Assembly (NCBI RefSeq): GCF_029338295.1
Contig: NZ_CP119791.1
Location: forward strand, 2,852,001 to 2,916,000
Origin: Haladaptatus sp. QDMS2
GTDB taxonomy: Archaea > Halobacteriota > Halobacteria > Halobacteriales > Halococcaceae
Direction: 5' to 3'
DNA length: 64,000 bases
The notes under the pieces are model-generated. The model was given only the letters and a program-made list of their open reading frames with translations. It was not told where the DNA came from and made no database searches. Shown one piece after another: positions 49,336 through 58,216 of the stretch (position 1 is the first letter of the stretch; each line of letters starts with the position of its first letter). The position numbers and the translations under genes are program-made.

Positions 49336-52300
49336 CTACGTCGTCCGAAGGTGGTCGGTGCGCGGTTCGTACACCTCGCCTTTCTGTTTGAGCTTCTCGA
49401 TTTCGTGTTCGGCCTTCGAGTGGTCCATCCCGATTTCCTCCGCCCGGTCTAACACCACGTCGATTGGCGCACCGTCCTCGTATTCGTCTTCGATTTCCTT
49501 GATGAGGTTCTTGATGTTCTTCACGCGGTCGCGCTGGGTCTTCGAGCGGCCCGTCTCGACCACGTCGGCGTCGAACTGCCCGGTCTCCGGGTCGACCCCG
49601 ATGTCCTGGAGACACGACCGGACGAGTTCGATGACCCGCTCTGCGTCCTCTGTTTCGACGGTGTCAGAGAGGCGAACCCGCGCGCTCGCCTCAGAGAGCC
49701 GGACGAGCCCCTCGAGTTTACGGGCGGTCACGGGAACCGGGGCGTCCTCGTCTGCACCCTTCGACCGCAGGTCCACGTAGAAGTCACGGATGGCCTGTTT
49801 GGCCTCGTCACTCATCGTCGGATAACACGTGCGTTTGGAGAACGCGATGTACTTGCGGAGCAACTCGGCGTCGATGACGGGCGCCACCTCCTCGGTCACC
49901 TCGTTTACCTGCTGTTCGGTGAAGTTAGAGGAGTTCGTGTGCGTGCGGTGGGTGTGCAACTCGCCTGCGTAGTTCGTCCGCAGGATGTGCTCTGCGAGTT
50001 CTGTGTCCTTCTCCGCGTCCGGCTTGTCCGTCACCGTGAAGATGAGGTCGAACCGGGAGATGAGCGCCGGTTCGAGTTCGATTTGCTCCCCGATTGGCTC
50101 GTACGGGTCGAACCGGCCGTACTTCGGGTTCGCCGCACCGAGCAGCGAACACCGCGATTTGAGCGTCGCGTTGATGCCTGCCTTGGAAACCGAAATTGAG
50201 TTGTGGAGCACAACTCCCTGACTGACGAACGTATTGGTTGGCTCAACAGTCACGTCGTACACCCACGCTGTTTCGTACTCACCGGCGTTCGGAACGACCT
50301 CTACATCCGTGACACGATAGTACCGGAGTTCACATCCCGCTTCTAGTTCGCAAATTCGCTGTTCAGCTTCTTCGAGAGCTTGTTGCACAGTTGCGTGTGC
50401 ACGGTTCGTCAGTTGTTCACGCGTTTGCTCGTCATAGCCACCCGCCTCTGCGTAGTGAACAGTGCTCGTCGTCACGCCGTCCAATCGTTCGGCGAGTTGA
50501 CGGCCGGACCAGTTGATTGTCGTCCGAATCGTAGCGAGAGTAGTTGCGTTTTCGAGTTCTTGTTCGACCACTTTTACGCGATCGCGAATCTCTGCAATCT
50601 CCTCCTGCACGGTTTCCACCCGAATGCCGAATCCTTCATCGAGCGTCGGACGGAACTTCCCGGTGAGATTGAGACCGACGAGTTTCCGAAGGCTGCGAAT
50701 CTCTCGTGCCACGTCTGTTGGCAAGACGTCATGGTGTCTCGGAGTGGCGTCGCTTCGGTCTGCAAACGCGACAGCATCGTCGTATCGGTCGTCTGTTGGT
50801 TCGACTACCGCATCGACGAATTGCCGGATTGAATCGCCCATCACGTACACTTTCCACGAATTTTCGGCGATATCGTGGTGGATACGGGAGCCAACGCCTA
50901 TCTTCGCAAGCGCATCCGCGTAGTCTTCTGCGAGCCCTTCTGACGCCGTCGAAAATGACATGGCTTCACTTTCGACCCCACCGTCACCGGCGAATACACC
51001 GACCAGGAACCGGCGAATGTGTTCCTCTGACGCTCCGAGCACCTTCGCTGGAATTCGCTTGTCGCGGGCCGTGTGCATGAACTCGGGGAAGTTCGCCTCA
51101 AACCACCGGTACAGTTTGGTTGAAACCCACCGCTTTGTCACTGTTCCTGCGGCATTCACTGCGTCGGTACTTTCGATCGCAAACGTGCTTCGTGCGAGTG
51201 TCGCTGCCCGTTCGAGTAATCGTTGATCCTGATTTGAGAATCCGATTTCGTGGCTGGAGCCAGCATACGAGTGCCCCTCGGCAACAAGGAGTCCAAGAAG
51301 CTCCGCGAGGTCTGGCGTAAGTGACTCGGGAAGTCGTACATCTTTCTCATTCCCCTGTACTGGCTCGTCAACTAGCGTGACACCAGCCGCAGAGTTTGGG
51401 AGTTTTCGTGGTGCTGGGACGAAATCACCGGCCGAAATGTCTTGCGCTTCGACCGTCTCAACGTCACTTCCTGCGACGAACATTGGATGTTCCGGCGTAA
51501 CCATCACCTCTCGTCCGTTCGAAAACCGCACTCTCACGAACTCGTCGGGTGCCTCGTGGCGGCTGACTCGGTCAACAGGGTGTTTCGTCGTCTTATTCGA
51601 CTCGAAATCAACAGAATGGACTTGCGTATCGTCGACCGAAATAATCTCACAGTTAATTCCATCGACGACTGCATCTGGATTGGCTGCCATCTTGGAATCA
51701 ACAAACTCGCCGATTTTCACGCGTCGTCCATCAGCAAGCAAAATCTCTGAATTTGGGTGATATGACTGCTGTTCCAGCGCTTCGTGCATCGCAGAGCGGT
51801 CTTCCGATCGCATCTTATCGAGTTCGTCCACTGCAGCAATTCCTTTGTCTGCGAGGACGAGCGCACCTGCTTCGAGCGTCCACTGCTGGCCGTCACCGAA
51901 GTCGTCGCGCACCGCAGCGGCGGTGTTGTGCGTCACCACACCGTTCCCGATGAAGTTGTGCGTTTCAGGAACTGTGAGGTCAAACACTTCTTTCGTACCT
52001 ACATCTGCCGCTTCGACGACGCGGTCCCAGCAGAGACTGGCGTCAACGACTTCGCGGACAAGGGGTTCTGCGTGTCCGAGGTCAACGTCTTCGAGTATCG
52101 CTCTGGCGCGCTCACGGCCTGGATTGTCCCCGCGTGTCACGTTGGTGTGGTACGCACCACCAGCGCCGTCAGTAGCGACGAGTGCCGACCCCACTGGAAT
52201 CGTCTCTCCGCGTCTTGTCGCGCCGTTGGTGATCTTTTCGAGCGACGCTTGCTTTGGTGTGACCTCGAAACCGATGGTCGCGGCGTAGCGGTCGATATTC

Positions 52301-55300
52301 GAACCGTATATCTCGACGAAATGCTGCACGTGCTTGGACTCAATAGTCTGGCCATCGGCTAACGTATACGTTCCACGTCGATCGCGTTCCCGTCGTCGTG
52401 CGCGGACGCCATAGGTCTCTAGCATCAGCTGAACCTGTTCGGCCAACCCTTCGCTGATCGTTGAGAGAAGGATACTGGACCCACCGTTTTCACGGACTGA
52501 GACGGCTCCGTCCGCGTCCATCAGTCCTCGAAGGAATGCGTTGGCGTGCTCTGCTGTCGTGAGCTCAGGTGCCAGTTCGAGGTTGGCTTTTGGCGTCTCC
52601 ATCCCAGCATTGGCGAAAAGGCGTGCAATCGTTGCGCTGTTAACCCTTATACACGAAACACGGCCTTCCTGTCGTTCGATGCTTGGGTGCTTATCGAACT
52701 TCTCGGCGAAGATAGTTGCTGCCCGCTTTAGTACCTCCTCATCGCTATTAGAGAGCCGAATTAATCCCCGATTCCCGCGCCGGCGGTCCAGAGAGATATC
52801 ACCGTCGCCAAAGACGAGTCCAAGAAGATACATGAGTTCCTCGTCGAACGTTTTTGGCACGGTGATGCTGTCACCATGTCGAATCATGAGGCGATCGAAT
52901 GTGATATCTTCACGAGTCATCCCAACCGCATCGAGCATCGTGTCGAGTTTTGAAAGAGGGACGTGTCGGTTTCTGAGGGAGTCATAGATGAAGTCCTCTG
53001 AGAGGCCCAGTGTTGTCGCTGCTCCACGAAGGTGGCCAAACTCTGTGCAGAGGGCCGCACGAATCGTCTCAACTGATTCGTCGGTCAACTTCACTTTCTC
53101 GGTGGTGAGTTCGAGGAGTTTCCGAACCGGGATCTCGGTTCGCTCGAAGTCCCTGTACTTTGGAATCGCGACGTAATCTCCCGGCCCAATATCTGAAATC
53201 TTGACCCACTCCATACCGTGTTCGCCGCACGTCAAGAGTGGCGTGTTCTCGGATGCAGTAAGCGACTTTCCGTGGGCGGTTTCGATGCGTCTGCAGGGCT
53301 TTTCTGGCATCCGCCAGACGTGCGATGAAGCGCGTTCATCTACCACACCGGTTCTGCGGTCGAACGTTTGTAAACCAATAGCTTTCAGTGCGCTCGTCTC
53401 TTCTGTCACCGGTTCAGGGTGTTCGTCAATCGCAAGATTCCGAATCTCCTGGAATCCGTTTTCGGTGTGGATTCGCGTGTCACCAGTCACACAGAGACCC
53501 GCAGAGGACGAACCCTTGCCCGAGGTGTAGACCGACCGCGGTGCGATGTTTCGAATGTACTGGAGCATCGCGGAGTTGTGCGACACAATGTTGTTCGTCA
53601 GGTAGTTGTGAGTCCCCTCAATTTCCAGGTCGTACACCCATTCATAATCTGGTTCAGCAATTTCGATGGACTCGATTTGTTCCCACCGGATGTCTCCCTC
53701 GACAAGTTGCTTGAGCGCGTGTATCTCATCAGCGACTGCTATTCCGTCTTCAATTCGCTCGTTTATCACTGCACGCGCTCCGGACACATAGCCGCCGTCT
53801 GCGATGACTTCGTTTCGCTCGTGAAGGCTCACTGTCCGCTGTGAAACGCCAACGTCGTCAGCAATTGCCTGCTGTGAGATGTTCAGATCGGTGCGTGCTG
53901 TTTTGAGGCTCTCCCATTCCGGTTGGAGATTCTGCTTGAGCGCGTAGAGTTCATCTAATCGGCTTTCGAACGCCGTAATGACTGACCGGAGCGCCTCACG
54001 GGAGGGGTTTCTGTCACCGCGTTCGTAGTGCTGGTAGGTTGACCGAGGAACACCGCAGTCGAACTGTGACAGTGCTAATGCGGTACGTATCTCCTGTAGC
54101 TGCTCTCCAATATCCGGAATCACATCGACGTTGGTATTCTCTGGTACGTCGGCAAATGCCTGTGATGCAACGGTTTTTCGCTCGGTTACGAATCCAACTT
54201 GTTCAACATACTCACTGAAGTCCGAACCACTGATTCGGAGCCGGAAACTCTCGTTGTGTCGTGGTTTCAAGTGAGCGCCAATACCGATCGACGCGAGCAA
54301 CGACTTCACGCCCTCTAACAGCTTACGACTCATCGAACTGACCGTAATCTCTCGCTGCGTGGTTGAAACGTGGCCTTCGGCCTCAACATAGGCTTTCAGG
54401 AACGCTGCTTTCACTTCCGGACTTGTGCTGAACAGCGCCTGTGGAACGTGCTGTTCTGCAGATCGGTTGAGGATGGCAGGCTCCAGATTTTCGAGGAAGC
54501 TTACAAACTCACTAGCTGAACAGACAACTTCTCGCGCCTGTTCATCTGGGCGTCCTTCGCGTTCAGACCACGTCAGTCCTAATCGCTCGAACCCGTCGGC
54601 GACGTCGTCGAGAATCTCGCGGTCGTTGTTCGTGATGGTGACCGAGCCGCTGTGCTCGTCATTTCGGTACACGTGACCCTCTGCGATGATGTAGCCAATG
54701 AGCCGCGCAAGTGACGGCGTCCAGGTTTCTGGGAGGGACAGACGAACGGCATTGTTCGCTCTCGACCGTCGATAGTCGACGGAAAGTGTATCGTCCCACG
54801 TGGTTGGTATGTGCCGAGGTGTCGCGATAAATTGCCCTTCGGAGAGCGTTTCTGCCTTGCGAGCCGAGAATCTGCCATCCGACTGCACAAACAATGGGTG
54901 GGACGGAGTCACCTCTATCTCGCTTCCGCTCGCGGTTTGGATGCGATACATCCGATCAGGTGCTTCGCGCTTCCAGACTTTCGTGGCTCGCTTTTGCGTC
55001 AGGGTTCCGTCTAAATCGACCGAAGGGACTGGGAAATCAACCGCTTGGTACACACCGTCGTCAATTGGTTTCGGATCCGTGAGATTTGACTCGACCAGCT
55101 CTCGAATCGTTACCTCTGTGCCGTCTGCGAGCGTGACTTTTGTATCGCCTTTGACGCACTTCCCGGTCCCTGGGTCACCGATGAGGAGCATGTGCAGGTC
55201 GCCACGAATCCGCGACCCGTCGGGGAGGTGTTTGGTCACGCCAGAGAACAACTGGAGAATCATCGCTAACTTCTCCTGTTCGTACCCGAAGATGGAGGGT

Positions 55301-56151
55301 GCAATCGACCCCACCATCTTGTCGTAAATGTCGGGTTCCTGGGAGAGTTCGATGATGTCCTTTTTGTCCTCCTCGGTGATGTCCATCTCCTCGAACTGCT
55401 CGTCCTCGACGACGATGGAACTGCCCTCCATGAACACGTCGAACATCGGGGACTTCTCCTGGTTGTTGCCCTGTTGTTCGAGGTGGAGGACGCCCGTCAC
55501 GCGGACGTGGTCACCGGCGGTCACCTTGCCCGTGATGTCGTCTTCGATGTGGATGTCGATGCTCTGAGGTGTCTCCCCGCCGCGAAGTCCCTCGGGGCTC
55601 TCTTGGACCCGGAGCTTCTGGGCGTCGATGAACTCAGACTGGTCGAAGTTGATGCGAAACGGCCCCTGTCGTTCACAGCCCTGACACTCGTGGGGTTCCT
55701 GGAAGTCGCCGCCGGCCTGCTGGATGAAGGTCAGCGTGCCACAGCGCAGGCATTCGAAGGCGGCTTCCTGAATCTTCGGTCGAACGTCGGTGGCCTTGCG
55801 GACGATGCCCTGCACCGCGATGAGTCGGCCGCGGTGTCGTGCCCGAATCTTCCGGATGTCCGTCGCCTCCGGCAGGTTCTTGACCCGGACGTGCGCCCGG
55901 CCTAGGCCGACGTCGACCGGCAGGTCGTACATCCGCAGCGCCTCCTCTGCGTACTGTTGGAGTTGCCCGGGTTGGGACTTGTAGTCGTCTGCGAGGTCCG
56001 GGTCGAACCGATAGAGATCCTGATAATCGATGTACAGCGACCGCTGTTCGTTTGGGTACTTCTGGGCGAGTTCCCCGATTGCGTCGCGGTAGTAGTTCCG
56101 GTAGAACTCTTCGAATCGCTCGATTAGCTCTGCGTTTTCCGCGTGCGCCAT
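49336..56151 (-). CDS. mcm: MCM replicative DNA helicase precursor with three inteins
   Basis: 2271 codons from ATG 56151. The four extein pieces (residues 1-331, 860-886, 1410-1462, 1985-2271) join to a 698-residue MCM. The N-terminal domain has a zinc ribbon (Cys134, Cys137, Cys156, Cys159) and DNA-binding hairpin region; Walker A GDPGTGK is residues 325-331, Walker B is ALVLADKGIAAVDELDKM, the arginine finger is SRFD, and a C-terminal winged helix ends the protein. The hexamer unwinds DNA at the replication fork. The start is supported by a TATA-like TACTTA at 56179-56184. It is downstream of no gene and is followed by a small broken gene. All three inteins must splice for activity. Confidence 0.96.
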   Translation of the reverse strand: MAHAENAELIERFEEFYRNYYRDAIGELAQKYPNEQRSLYIDYQDLYRFDPDLADDYKSQPGQLQQYAEEALRMYDLPVDVGLGRAHVRVKNLPEATDIRKIRARHRGRLIAVQGIVRKATDVRPKIQEAAFECLRCGTLTFIQQAGGDFQEPHECQGCERQGPFRINFDQSEFIDAQKLRVQESPEGLRGGETPQSIDIHIEDDITGKVTAGDHVRVTGVLHLEQQGNNQEKSPMFDVFMEGSSIVVEDEQFEEMDITEEDKKDIIELSQEPDIYDKMVGSIAPSIFGYEQEKLAMILQLFSGVTKHLPDGSRIRGDLHMLLIGDPGTGKCVKGDTKVTLADGTEVTIRELVESNLTDPKPIDDGVYQAVDFPVPSVDLDGTLTQKRATKVWKREAPDRMYRIQTASGSEIEVTPSHPLFVQSDGRFSARKAETLSEGQFIATPRHIPTTWDDTLSVDYRRSRANNAVRLSLPETWTPSLARLIGYIIAEGHVYRNDEHSGSVTITNNDREILDDVADGFERLGLTWSEREGRPDEQAREVVCSASEFVSFLENLEPAILNRSAEQHVPQALFSTSPEVKAAFLKAYVEAEGHVSTTQREITVSSMSRKLLEGVKSLLASIGIGAHLKPRHNESFRLRISGSDFSEYVEQVGFVTERKTVASQAFADVPENTNVDVIPDIGEQLQEIRTALALSQFDCGVPRSTYQHYERGDRNPSREALRSVITAFESRLDELYALKQNLQPEWESLKTARTDLNISQQAIADDVGVSQRTVSLHERNEVIADGGYVSGARAVINERIEDGIAVADEIHALKQLVEGDIRWEQIESIEIAEPDYEWVYDLEIEGTHNYLTNNIVSHNSAMLQYIRNIAPRSVYTSGKGSSSAGLCVTGDTRIHTENGFQEIRNLAIDEHPEPVTEETSALKAIGLQTFDRRTGVVDERASSHVWRMPEKPCRRIETAHGKSLTASENTPLLTCGEHGMEWVKISDIGPGDYVAIPKYRDFERTEIPVRKLLELTTEKVKLTDESVETIRAALCTEFGHLRGAATTLGLSEDFIYDSLRNRHVPLSKLDTMLDAVGMTREDITFDRLMIRHGDSITVPKTFDEELMYLLGLVFGDGDISLDRRRGNRGLIRLSNSDEEVLKRAATIFAEKFDKHPSIERQEGRVSCIRVNSATIARLFANAGMETPKANLELAPELTTAEHANAFLRGLMDADGAVSVRENGGSSILLSTISEGLAEQVQLMLETYGVRARRRERDRRGTYTLADGQTIESKHVQHFVEIYGSNIDRYAATIGFEVTPKQASLEKITNGATRRGETIPVGSALVATDGAGGAYHTNVTRGDNPGRERARAILEDVDLGHAEPLVREVVDASLCWDRVVEAADVGTKEVFDLTVPETHNFIGNGVVTHNTAAAVRDDFGDGQQWTLEAGALVLADKGIAAVDELDKMRSEDRSAMHEALEQQSYHPNSEILLADGRRVKIGEFVDSKMAANPDAVVDGINCEIISVDDTQVHSVDFESNKTTKHPVDRVSRHEAPDEFVRVRFSNGREVMVTPEHPMFVAGSDVETVEAQDISAGDFVPAPRKLPNSAAGVTLVDEPVQGNEKDVRLPESLTPDLAELLGLLVAEGHSYAGSSHEIGFSNQDQRLLERAATLARSTFAIESTDAVNAAGTVTKRWVSTKLYRWFEANFPEFMHTARDKRIPAKVLGASEEHIRRFLVGVFAGDGGVESEAMSFSTASEGLAEDYADALAKIGVGSRIHHDIAENSWKVYVMGDSIRQFVDAVVEPTDDRYDDAVAFADRSDATPRHHDVLPTDVAREIRSLRKLVGLNLTGKFRPTLDEGFGIRVETVQEEIAEIRDRVKVVEQELENATTLATIRTTINWSGRQLAERLDGVTTSTVHYAEAGGYDEQTREQLTNRAHATVQQALEEAEQRICELEAGCELRYYRVTDVEVVPNAGEYETAWVYDVTVEPTNTFVSQGVVLHNSISVSKAGINATLKSRCSLLGAANPKYGRFDPYEPIGEQIELEPALISRFDLIFTVTDKPDAEKDTELAEHILRTNYAGELHTHRTHTNSSNFTEQQVNEVTEEVAPVIDAELLRKYIAFSKRTCYPTMSDEAKQAIRDFYVDLRSKGADEDAPVPVTARKLEGLVRLSEASARVRLSDTVETEDAERVIELVRSCLQDIGVDPETGQFDADVVETGRSKTQRDRVKNIKNLIKEIEDEYEDGAPIDVVLDRAEEIGMDHSKAEHEIEKLKQKGEVYEPRTDHLRTT
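50200..51765 (-). other. Intein 3 of MCM, 522 residues, with LAGLIDADG endonuclease
   Basis: Residues 1463-1984, between EALEQQ and SISVSKAGI near the Walker B and sensor region. It starts with Ser (SYHPNSEILLADG) instead of Cys and ends VVLHN with +1 Ser. Block B TPEHPMF keeps the TxxH motif. Block F reads VYDVTVEPTNTF where the usual His is Asn. Two endonuclease motifs are LAELLGLLVAEGHS (about 153-166) and FLVGVFAGDGGV (about 253-264). GC content is lower than the flanking exteins. It looks intact. Confidence 0.9.
51925..53493 (-). other. Intein 2 of MCM, 523 residues, with LAGLIDADG endonuclease
   Basis: Residues 887-1409, inserted after SGKGSSSAGL and before TAAAVRDD. It starts with Cys (CVTGDTRIHTENG) and ends VVTHN with +1 Thr. 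Block B is unusual: the canonical TxxH is replaced by SENT (TASENTPLL). Block F VFDLTVPETHNF is normal. Endonuclease motifs: LLGLVFGDGDI (about 223-233) and FLRGLMDADGAV (about 320-331), the latter the classic form. Also a helix-turn-helix-like stretch LSEDFIYDSLRNRHVPLSKL. Confidence 0.9.
53575..55158 (-). other. Intein 1 of MCM, 528 residues, with LAGLIDADG endonuclease and HTH segments
   Basis: Residues 332-859, inserted directly after the Walker A lysine (GDPGTGK | S). It starts CVKGDTKVTLADG and ends IVSHN with +1 Ser. Block B VTPSHPLF (TxxH) and block F VYDLEIEGTHNY are normal, so splicing is likely. Endonuclease motifs LIGYIIAEGHV (about 153-163) and FLKAYVEAEGHV (about 253-264). Two helix-turn-helix-like stretches (LALSQFDCGVPRSTYQHYER and ISQQAIADDVGVSQRTVSLH) probably help DNA recognition. 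Confidence 0.92.
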
Positions 56152-56811: not shown

Positions 56812-57891
56812 TTAGAGATACCGCTCGACGAACGTCCGGTGCTCCGCGGCCCGCTCGTCTCGCTCCTCGCTTGACGCATCCTGATACCACAGCGGGAGGC
56901 AGGCCATCGCGCCCAGCCGAGTGGTGAGGCTGTAGACTGCCATTCGCTCTCGGGTCGCCTCGTCGAACGCCCACCCACTTCGCGCCTCGGTGTAGGCCGT
57001 CCTGAAGGTCTCGCGGAGGGTTGCCGTCTGCTCCGGTCCGTCTTCCTCCGGATGCAGCAGGTAGAATTCCGTCTGTGCGAGGTTGTACGCCGGCTCTGCC
57101 GCAGACAGATTCGCCCAGTCGAGAACCGCCTTCGTCGCGCCCGTCTCCGGATCGACGAGCAGGTTCCCAAGGCGGTAGTCCCAGTGGCAGTAGGTCGGTG
57201 CTTCGGGTTCCGACAGCGCGGGAATCGCGTCCCGGAGATACTCCCGTACGCCCGGCACGAGGTCGGCGAACCGCTCGGGTTTCTCCGCGAGGTCCGGGAA
57301 GAAACCGCCCTCGGCTAAGCTGTCGAGCGTTCCCTCACTGTCCGCCAGCACCTTTTCGCGCAAATCGTCGTAGCGAGGGTGTTCGTCAGTATCCAGGACG
57401 GCCAGTTCCTCATCCCGAACCCCGACTTTCCCCGCGCCATCGAGCGGGCCGAGCTCGTGGAGTTCCGCGAGATTTTGACCCGCCTCTCGGAGAATCTGCG
57501 TCCGGGCATCGAAGGAGAGTTGGCTCGCCTCGCCTTCGAAATTCTCCCCCTCGACGTATTCCATCAGATAGAACGGCGCGGGAAACCGCTCGTGGTCGTC
57601 ACAGTAGCCGAAAACCTCCGGGACGGGAATGGTCGTCTTCAGTCCGACCAACGCGAGCAGTCGCGGTTCTGCCCGTGCAATGACGGGGTCCACGAAATCA
57701 GCCGTCGTCGCCTTGAGTACGACCACTCGTCGCTCGAAGGACGTTTTCACGTCGAGTTTCGCGACGAAATCCGTGCCGTGGGGGCTTCGTTCGACCGATT
57801 CGGCCTCCCAGTCCGACTTGAGGTTCTCGACCATCTCCTGCACTGCCGCGTCGGAAATTTCCGCAGAATCGTTGCCCGTCGCCGTCGTCAT
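56812..57891 (-). CDS. Aminoglycoside phosphotransferase-family protein
   Basis: 359 residues from ATG 57891 (MTTATGNDSAEISDAAVQEM). Kinase-like APH fold: VVLKATTADFVD (ATP-binding Lys), FYLMEYVEGENF hinge, CHWDYRLGNLLVDPETG (the HxDxxxxN catalytic loop) and VLDWANLSAAEP (metal Asp-x-x motif). The family phosphorylates small molecules or acts in acyl-CoA metabolism (ACAD10/11-like). Which substrate is not visible. A longer frame to 58008 runs into the tRNA-tail repeat region and is rejected. Confidence 0.82.
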   Translation of the reverse strand: MTTATGNDSAEISDAAVQEMVENLKSDWEAESVERSPHGTDFVAKLDVKTSFERRVVVLKATTADFVDPVIARAEPRLLALVGLKTTIPVPEVFGYCDDHERFPAPFYLMEYVEGENFEGEASQLSFDARTQILREAGQNLAELHELGPLDGAGKVGVRDEELAVLDTDEHPRYDDLREKVLADSEGTLDSLAEGGFFPDLAEKPERFADLVPGVREYLRDAIPALSEPEAPTYCHWDYRLGNLLVDPETGATKAVLDWANLSAAEPAYNLAQTEFYLLHPEEDGPEQTATLRETFRTAYTEARSGWAFDEATRERMAVYSLTTRLGAMACLPLWYQDASSEERDERAAEHRTFVERYL

Positions 57892-57938
57892 ACGCTCACT
57901 TCTGATTGAACGTGTAGAAGTTTTGTGGTGATGGGTAC

Positions 57939-57958
57939 GGAACCACCCGGATTTGAAC
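57939..57958. repeat. Partial copy of tRNA-Pro 3' end (copy 1)
   Basis: GGAACCACCCGGATTTGAAC, one mismatch to the 3' segment of the tRNA-Pro gene (minus strand). It is followed by a perfect palindrome TCGCAACGTTGCGA at 57963-57976 and by GTGCG-TTCGT-CGCAC at 58023-58037. Confidence 0.7.
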
Positions 57959-58042
57959 TCGGTCGCAACGTTGCGAGTTGCTCTCTGCTCAAACTGGTTG
58001 CTGTCCATTTCTGCCTCCTCACGTGCGTTCGTCGCACAGAAA

Positions 58043-58064
58043 TGGGACCACCCGGATTTGAACC
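58043..58064. repeat. Partial copy of tRNA-Pro 3' end (copy 2)
   Basis: TGGGACCACCCGGATTTGAACC identical to the 3' 22 bases of the tRNA gene at 58144-58165. An inverted repeat CGGATTTGAAC (58053-58063) / GTTCAAATCCG (58085-58095) folds back on it, and CTCTCGC / GCGAGAG at 58111-58138 follows. Copies start about 105 and 101 bases apart. Confidence 0.75.
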
Positions 58065-58143
58065 CCAGTCGCTGTCGCTCCTTTGTTCAAATCCGCGGCT
58101 CGTCAGAAGGCTCTCGCTCGCCAATTTGCTCGCGAGAGAATTA

Positions 58144-58216
58144 TGGGACCACCCGGATTTGAACCAGGGTCACAGCGTCCCAAACGCTGAAGGATACCAA
58201 GCTACCCCATGGTCCC
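58144..58216 (-). tRNA. tRNA-Pro (anticodon UGG)
   Basis: 73 bases on the minus strand. Acceptor stem GGGACCA / TGGTCCC pairs perfectly with discriminator A (58144). The anticodon stem CAGCG / CGCTG holds loop TTTGGGA, so the anticodon is UGG (Pro, CCA codon). T-arm GGTTCAAATCC is standard. The 3' CCA is not encoded. No intron seen. Its 3' end is repeated twice downstream. Confidence 0.95.

Follow-up and report, generated by a model that had tools for sequence, protein, structure and literature searches.

Direct copies of a tRNA 3′ end are typical att sites (PMC8371274, PMC3119063), and in archaea the tRNA attachment sites of tyrosine integrases of the SNJ2, pNOB8 and SSV types carry such copies past an intact tRNA gene, as do the arrays reported here. 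Likenesses to other described systems are also evident. In integron cassette arrays, the units are tandem and share one orientation, and each closes with an imperfect hairpin, attC, whose structure is strand-specific and better kept than its sequence. REP/BIME elements and MITEs are likewise short, dispersed, palindromic and non-coding, and occur in tandem or singly, and structured RNA families in Rfam share covarying hairpins on one strand with tandem G.A mismatches. For haloarchaea, tRNA duplications come up in the Haloquadratum genome paper solely in connection with prophages, and the paper on the Haloferax volcanii genome contains nothing on the arrays described below. No description of them was found in the open-access literature; an earlier one in subscription papers is possible.

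A tandem array behind a tRNA-Pro gene

The locus lies in a 64-kb stretch of DNA, the whole of which was analysed and is referred to here as the window. The DNA is haloarchaeal, its closest relatives and every strong match belonging to Halobacteria. Its features, all on the minus strand and given in the direction of the tRNA, are as follows.

58144..58216, minus strand: tRNA-Pro(TGG) gene, the anchor of the array (ARAGORN; Rfam RF00005, 53.9 bits)
58111..58138, minus strand: hairpin A of unit 1 (sequence; strand-specific motif scan; covariation over 18 examples)
58050..58098, minus strand: hairpin B of unit 1 (covariance model R1, 61.9 bits, E 3.3e-15 in the window)
58042..58064, minus strand: sense copy of the tRNA 3′ end in unit 1 (repeat search; 100% against the tRNA)
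58008..58042, minus strand: hairpin A of unit 2, double-GA type (sequence)
57945..58000, minus strand: hairpin B of unit 2 (covariance model R1, 31.8 bits, E 1.2e-6)
57937..57959, minus strand: sense copy of the tRNA 3′ end in unit 2 (repeat search; 87% over 23 nt)
56812..57891, minus strand: phosphotransferase-like gene downstream of the array (ORF list; comparison with locus L039)

An earlier note on this DNA had reported that the 3′ end of the tRNA-Pro gene recurs at two places downstream, and this is confirmed by the repeat search, which detects three in-register 23-nt copies: the tRNA itself at 58143-58165, a second at 58042-58064 (100%) and a third at 57937-57959 (87%). The sequence copied in each unit corresponds to the 3′ 20-22 nt of tRNA-Pro(TGG). 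The regular spacing described in the same note also holds, the two units being 101 and 105 bp long, both on the tRNA strand. All four palindromes that it listed are present, each as part of a hairpin. In unit 1, 58111-58138 forms hairpin A and 58053-58095 the hairpin B stem; in unit 2, 58023-58037 sits within hairpin A and 57963-57976 belongs to the hairpin B cap.

On the tRNA strand, each unit is laid out as hairpin A, a spacer and hairpin B. Hairpin A abuts the tRNA in unit 1 and the preceding copy in unit 2, and hairpin B runs from an antisense T-loop arm through a conserved cap to a 3′ arm that is the start of the tRNA copy. Directly past tRNA-Pro, hairpin A of unit 1 reads CTCTCGC-GA-GC-AAATTG-GC-GA-GCGAGAG, a Watson-Crick stem with internal tandem G.A mismatches. 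Hairpin B of the same unit is made up of the antisense T-loop arm GGATTTGAAC, the cap AAAGGAGCGACAGCGACTGGG and the sense arm GTTCAAATCC, and the sense copy spans the T-loop, the 3′ strand of the T-stem and the 3′ strand of the acceptor. In unit 2, hairpin A has the form TTTCTGTGC-GA-C-GA-ACGCACGT-GA-G-GA-GGCAGAAA, and hairpin B features a degenerate antisense arm (AGTTTGAGC), GCAACTCGCAACGTTGC in its cap and, again, the sense arm GTTCAAATCC.

Folding of 57937-58143 on the tRNA strand gave z = -3.6, a value equalled by none of 200 shuffles, and the sense strand of the array is more stable (-81.7 kcal/mol) than the antisense strand (-68.3 kcal/mol). Covariance model R1 represents hairpin B and was built from 40 training sequences, mostly from other loci, with unit 1 of the window included and unit 2 excluded. 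Within the 64 kb it finds both units (E 3.3e-15 and 1.2e-6) and little besides, namely the reverse strand of unit 1, which is in part self-complementary, and a single match at chance level.

The phosphotransferase-like gene lies outside the array and marks its end, since the flank CACCACAAAACTTCTACAC comes after the last unit both in the window and in a congener (comparison with L039). Its long open reading frame extends back into unit 2 (57891-58008, minus strand). Comparison with the congener suggests that the true start is at 57891, probably ATGACGACGGCG, and automatic annotation may overextend this gene. Elsewhere in the window, a 2271-aa open frame at 49336-56151 (minus strand) resembles, from its translation alone, an MCM helicase split by several inteins.

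Recurrence behind other tRNA genes

A search of 60 related genomes with the locus yielded, among others, places that resembled the region between the copies rather than the tRNA. Like units were found there behind tRNA-Val, Met, Arg, Gly, Phe, Leu, Tyr, Lys, Gln, Asp and others. The copied 3′ end is generally that of the adjoining tRNA, and the antisense arm changes along with the copy: GGATTTGAA is antisense to TTCAAATCC, and the corresponding pairs are GGATTCGAA for TTCGAATCC at tRNA-Gln and tRNA-Val, GGCTCGAA for TTCGAGCC at tRNA-Asn, and GAGAATCGAA for TTCGATTCTC at tRNA-His. At positions 8-10, antisense arms match the tRNA of their own locus, as judged by permutations in which arms were dealt between loci (no more than 1 in 1000), and weakly at position 11; positions 8-11 lie beyond the universal T-loop. 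A few sense copies are better matched to tRNA-Arg(CCT) than to their own tRNA, and an odd copy in genome G080 has no matching tRNA end elsewhere in that genome.

GTDB genomes were also searched with a pattern for the unit containing no acceptor-specific bases. The exact pattern with a fixed cap loop had no matches, and the pattern with a relaxed cap gave 95 stretches, the titled records among which are haloarchaea or halophilic or unplaced euryarchaeal bins. Most of the 86 pattern instances lie 68-490 bp 3′ of a same-strand tRNA with a matching acceptor copy, and the spacing of 90 downstream copies peaks at 60-140 bp, with 4 upstream copies and 1 on the opposite strand as exceptions; these loci were selected for holding the motif, and such counts do not give prevalence. 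No gene cassettes longer than 1 kb were seen between the copies in the pattern loci.

Prevalence was estimated with model R1, which has matches in 187 of 194 Halobacteria genomes. In a phylum-wide draw, 50 of 53 genomes of the same order were matched, as against 2 of 242 others. None of these 242 provided a convincing match: the two near-threshold matches outside Halobacteria were rejected, one having no tRNA nearby and the other lying over a tRNA gene on the opposite strand. A search for the unit near other tRNA genes, as the earlier note had proposed, located R1 matches at 20 of the 45 tRNAs of the source genome, leaving 25 of 45 with no match. There, 27 of the 29 R1 matches lie at most 308 bp downstream of a same-strand tRNA, and the remaining 2 are copies of a displaced tRNA-His end (see below). 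The best 30 R1 matches from six further genomes are all tRNA-linked (30/30). Thus, the other possibility mentioned in the earlier note, an “unrecognised repeat or RNA element”, is borne out in that units of this kind are present behind a variety of tRNAs throughout Halobacteria.

Additional peculiarities were observed at individual loci. The tRNA-Asp gene is repeatedly duplicated along with its array (L229, L160, L176, L083), the repeats of tRNA plus array in L229 being 832 bp apart. Many sense copies have an extra base in the T-loop copy (TTCACAATCC, TTCATAATCC, TTCGATATCC; L042, L044, L049, L075), and the resulting bulge in hairpin B recurs at nearly the same position from one tRNA to another. 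A further modular hairpin is found 3′ of tRNAs in L059, L066, L087 and L095 (e.g. CTCGCAAACGCGAAGCGTTTGCTCA and GATGCGGC..GCCGCATC), inserted within or after array units and even inside tRNA copies.

Structure, strand and covariation

In hairpin B, 13 of 18 pairs are altered on both sides, and the observed values were reached in none of 500 shuffles. The shared cap is GGGAGC...GCGACC, in which the two pairs outside the tandem G.A swap between GG/CC, AG/CT and TC/GA. Hairpin A shows two-sided changes in 8 of its 10 pairs, with a score of 0.558 versus 0.216 over 18 examples, several of which were picked for pairing, so that the covariation counts lean toward structure. Regions were not chosen by pairing in a separate count, in which a stem-GA-stem...stem-GA-stem motif was present in 22 of 60 hairpin A regions, whereas shuffles gave 0.085 and the opposite strand 0. 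Near tRNAs, this motif occurs 30 times in sense and 4 times in antisense orientation, and the sense RNA folds more stably than the antisense in 83% of arrays, compared to 55% of tRNAs without copies.

Only 9 of 148 pairs in hairpin A are G-U pairs, and single mismatches display no preference for G-U over A-C; RNA is therefore not favoured over single-stranded DNA, and a folded single-stranded DNA site would be strand-specific too. T-runs after array tRNAs are the same as in controls, and a role as terminator is thus unsupported here. A K-turn was also considered and dropped, as the tandem G.A pairs come without the 3-nt bulge.

Two template switches would yield the order sense, antisense, sense. 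The units could accordingly be functionless products of template switching (tandem inversion duplication), generated de novo by replication error at each tRNA, with the observed sense - loop - antisense - loop - sense order and the locus-specific arms as expected outcomes. However, the loops, i.e. hairpin A and the cap, are homologous between tRNAs, genera and families, and in Halorubrum they are conserved like the tRNA. Independent origins would need unrelated caps, whereas the cap is shared, and we regard this explanation as most unlikely.

Conservation and turnover of units

Across nine Halorubrum genomes, the locus behind tRNA-Leu(CAA) shows 99.3% identity in hairpin B and 99.5% in the tRNA, whereas its 100-bp flanks are only 52% and 34% identical. 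Hairpin A features compensatory changes in two of these genomes (L163, L171). Such conservation of hairpin B, together with compensatory changes in hairpin A, is unlike a dead scar.

The earlier note had taken presence of the three-copy array in every relative, with never a mobile element there, as evidence against its own reading, and this holds in part. Within the genus, orthologous tRNA-Pro arrays with 1-2 units occur in both other species searched, but at greater distance the distribution is patchy, with an array at tRNA-Pro in about 8 of 30 relatives. Together with the 25 source-genome tRNAs without R1 match, this patchiness indicates that no array is essential at a given tRNA. Units also appear to come and go cleanly. 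In genome G002, the flank found downstream of the array in the window comes after a single unit, compared to two in the window itself; an insertion bordered by the acceptor copy distinguishes two loci from two species of another genus (L014 and L016); and four perfect 111-bp tandem units are found behind tRNA-Lys in L227. Moreover, unit bodies are shared across tRNAs, as with unit 2 of tRNA-Pro in genome G001 and the tRNA-Val unit, which agree at 78% over 93 nt and differ at their ends.

The sharing of unit bodies between tRNAs would be compatible with a mobile DNA repeat as well. A non-autonomous mobile DNA hairpin targeting tRNA 3′ ends, either REP/MITE-like or a folded single-strand site of the integron attC kind, would duplicate about 20 bp of its target and spread between tRNAs, its arms being adapted to each tRNA either through mutation or through copying at insertion. 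The differing ends of otherwise common bodies, the fixed insertion point and orientation, the direct repeats, the clean gain and loss of units, perfect tandem amplification, patchy distribution and the few sense copies closer to tRNA-Arg(CCT) than to their own tRNA all agree with this possibility. Nevertheless, a fixed element leaves the target-specific antisense arms unexplained, and the strong conservation seen in nine genomes at a single orthologous locus argues in the other direction. We consider a mobile hairpin a possible but somewhat doubtful explanation. One may also speculate on a self-propagating folded-strand element which, on arrival, makes one antisense and one sense copy of the tRNA 3′ end. 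This would mean that every haloarchaeal tRNA can carry a custom hairpin array and that the tRNA end is the primary site, like attI in integrons; we hold this to be unlikely.

Integrases, viruses and plasmids

The earlier note regarded the duplicated tRNA ends as typical scars of integrase-driven insertion. Integrase-driven elements that repeatedly entered the tRNA 3′ end and were lost again could indeed leave direct copies of the kind typical of att sites. No match to a tyrosine-integrase gene (PF00589) was detected in the 64 kb of the window, nor, in the source genome, within about 45 kb of any array other than the displaced tRNA-His locus, where the nearest integrase match is about 22 kb away. 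Units were found in 0 of 2.9 million viral contigs and in no phage records. The plasmid search yielded one weak 39-nt match on a Haloferax plasmid with no tRNA listed nearby; the plasmid tables list no RNA genes. The lack of a linked integrase gene and the absence from viral contigs and phage records, with this one weak plasmid match, also weigh against the mobile hairpin considered above.

An apparent case of insertion into a tRNA end is nevertheless present in the source genome. About 21.5 kb downstream of the tRNA-His gene lies a displaced tRNA-His 3′ end (G000:C1:24440-46040; L225, L232, L233), which carries its own unit but no tRNA, and the intervening genes are island-like (HNH, TnpB-type domain). 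This apparently represents an insertion at the end of the tRNA for which no tyrosine integrase was detected, and it shows how an insertion of this kind looks in the source genome. Two displaced tRNA-His stretches (G000:C1:24440 and 2945775; L225, L226) are 99.97% identical over 3.5 kb and beyond, reflecting either a recent duplication near contig ends or an assembly overlap.

The displaced tRNA-His end fits the integrase-scar explanation as a real insertion. Against that explanation, units of about 100 bp with two conserved, covarying hairpins, rather than random leftovers, recur with the same anatomy at dozens of tRNAs, in narrow spacing and fixed orientation. Neither the integrase genes nor the elements that the earlier note suggested looking for near the copies were encountered, with no cassette above 1 kb seen and no integrase in the window. 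The shared anatomy largely refutes the integrase-scar explanation, which we judge decidedly unlikely.

Interpretation

The explanation that we tentatively prefer, with a confidence a little short of even, is that the arrays are structured, selected tRNA trailers, the units of which are gained and lost by recombination between the 3′-end copies. On this reading, the locus in the window is a two-unit array of a non-coding, tRNA-anchored hairpin element found throughout Halobacteria. At the sequence level, the comparisons given above establish position, anatomy, sense-strand structure, compensatory evolution, class-wide range, and gain and loss of units. As a selected trailer, the array would be transcribed as part of the pre-tRNA and act as RNA. 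Hairpin A might protect the 3′ border of the tRNA or flag it for processing or termination, and the antisense arm of hairpin B may sequester the spare 3′ end, which then could not rival the genuine one in pairing with the 5′ half of the tRNA. The direct copies would allow amplification or loss of units through recombination.

Conserved, covarying elements thus appear to stand behind a large share of the tRNA genes of nearly all haloarchaea, including culturable Haloferax and Halorubrum. If they are RNA trailers, each tRNA would have its custom-built cis element, a new layer of archaeal tRNA biogenesis; if they are DNA elements, they would represent a new kind of tRNA-targeted repeat. Either reading accounts for many tRNA 3′-end duplications that could pass for integration scars.

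Comparison with known systems

The array element fails a defining feature of each of the att scar, the integron, the REP element and the MITE. Unlike archaeal integrase attachment sites, the arrays are gene-less units of about 100 bp with two conserved hairpins, are found at about half of the tRNAs of the source genome, have no integrase nearby and were not found in viral records. In contrast to integrons, no gene cassettes were seen and no linked integrase gene was found in the PF00589 search, and the arrays have many tRNA anchors instead of one attI. An Rfam scan of the window and of sampled array loci yielded only tRNA at the gathering threshold. The general intergenic dispersal of REP elements and MITEs is not observed, as all 29 R1 matches of the source genome trace to tRNA ends. 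Unlike REP/BIME elements and MITEs, the arrays are located essentially only behind tRNA genes and in fixed orientation, and each of their units holds both sense and antisense copies of the host tRNA.
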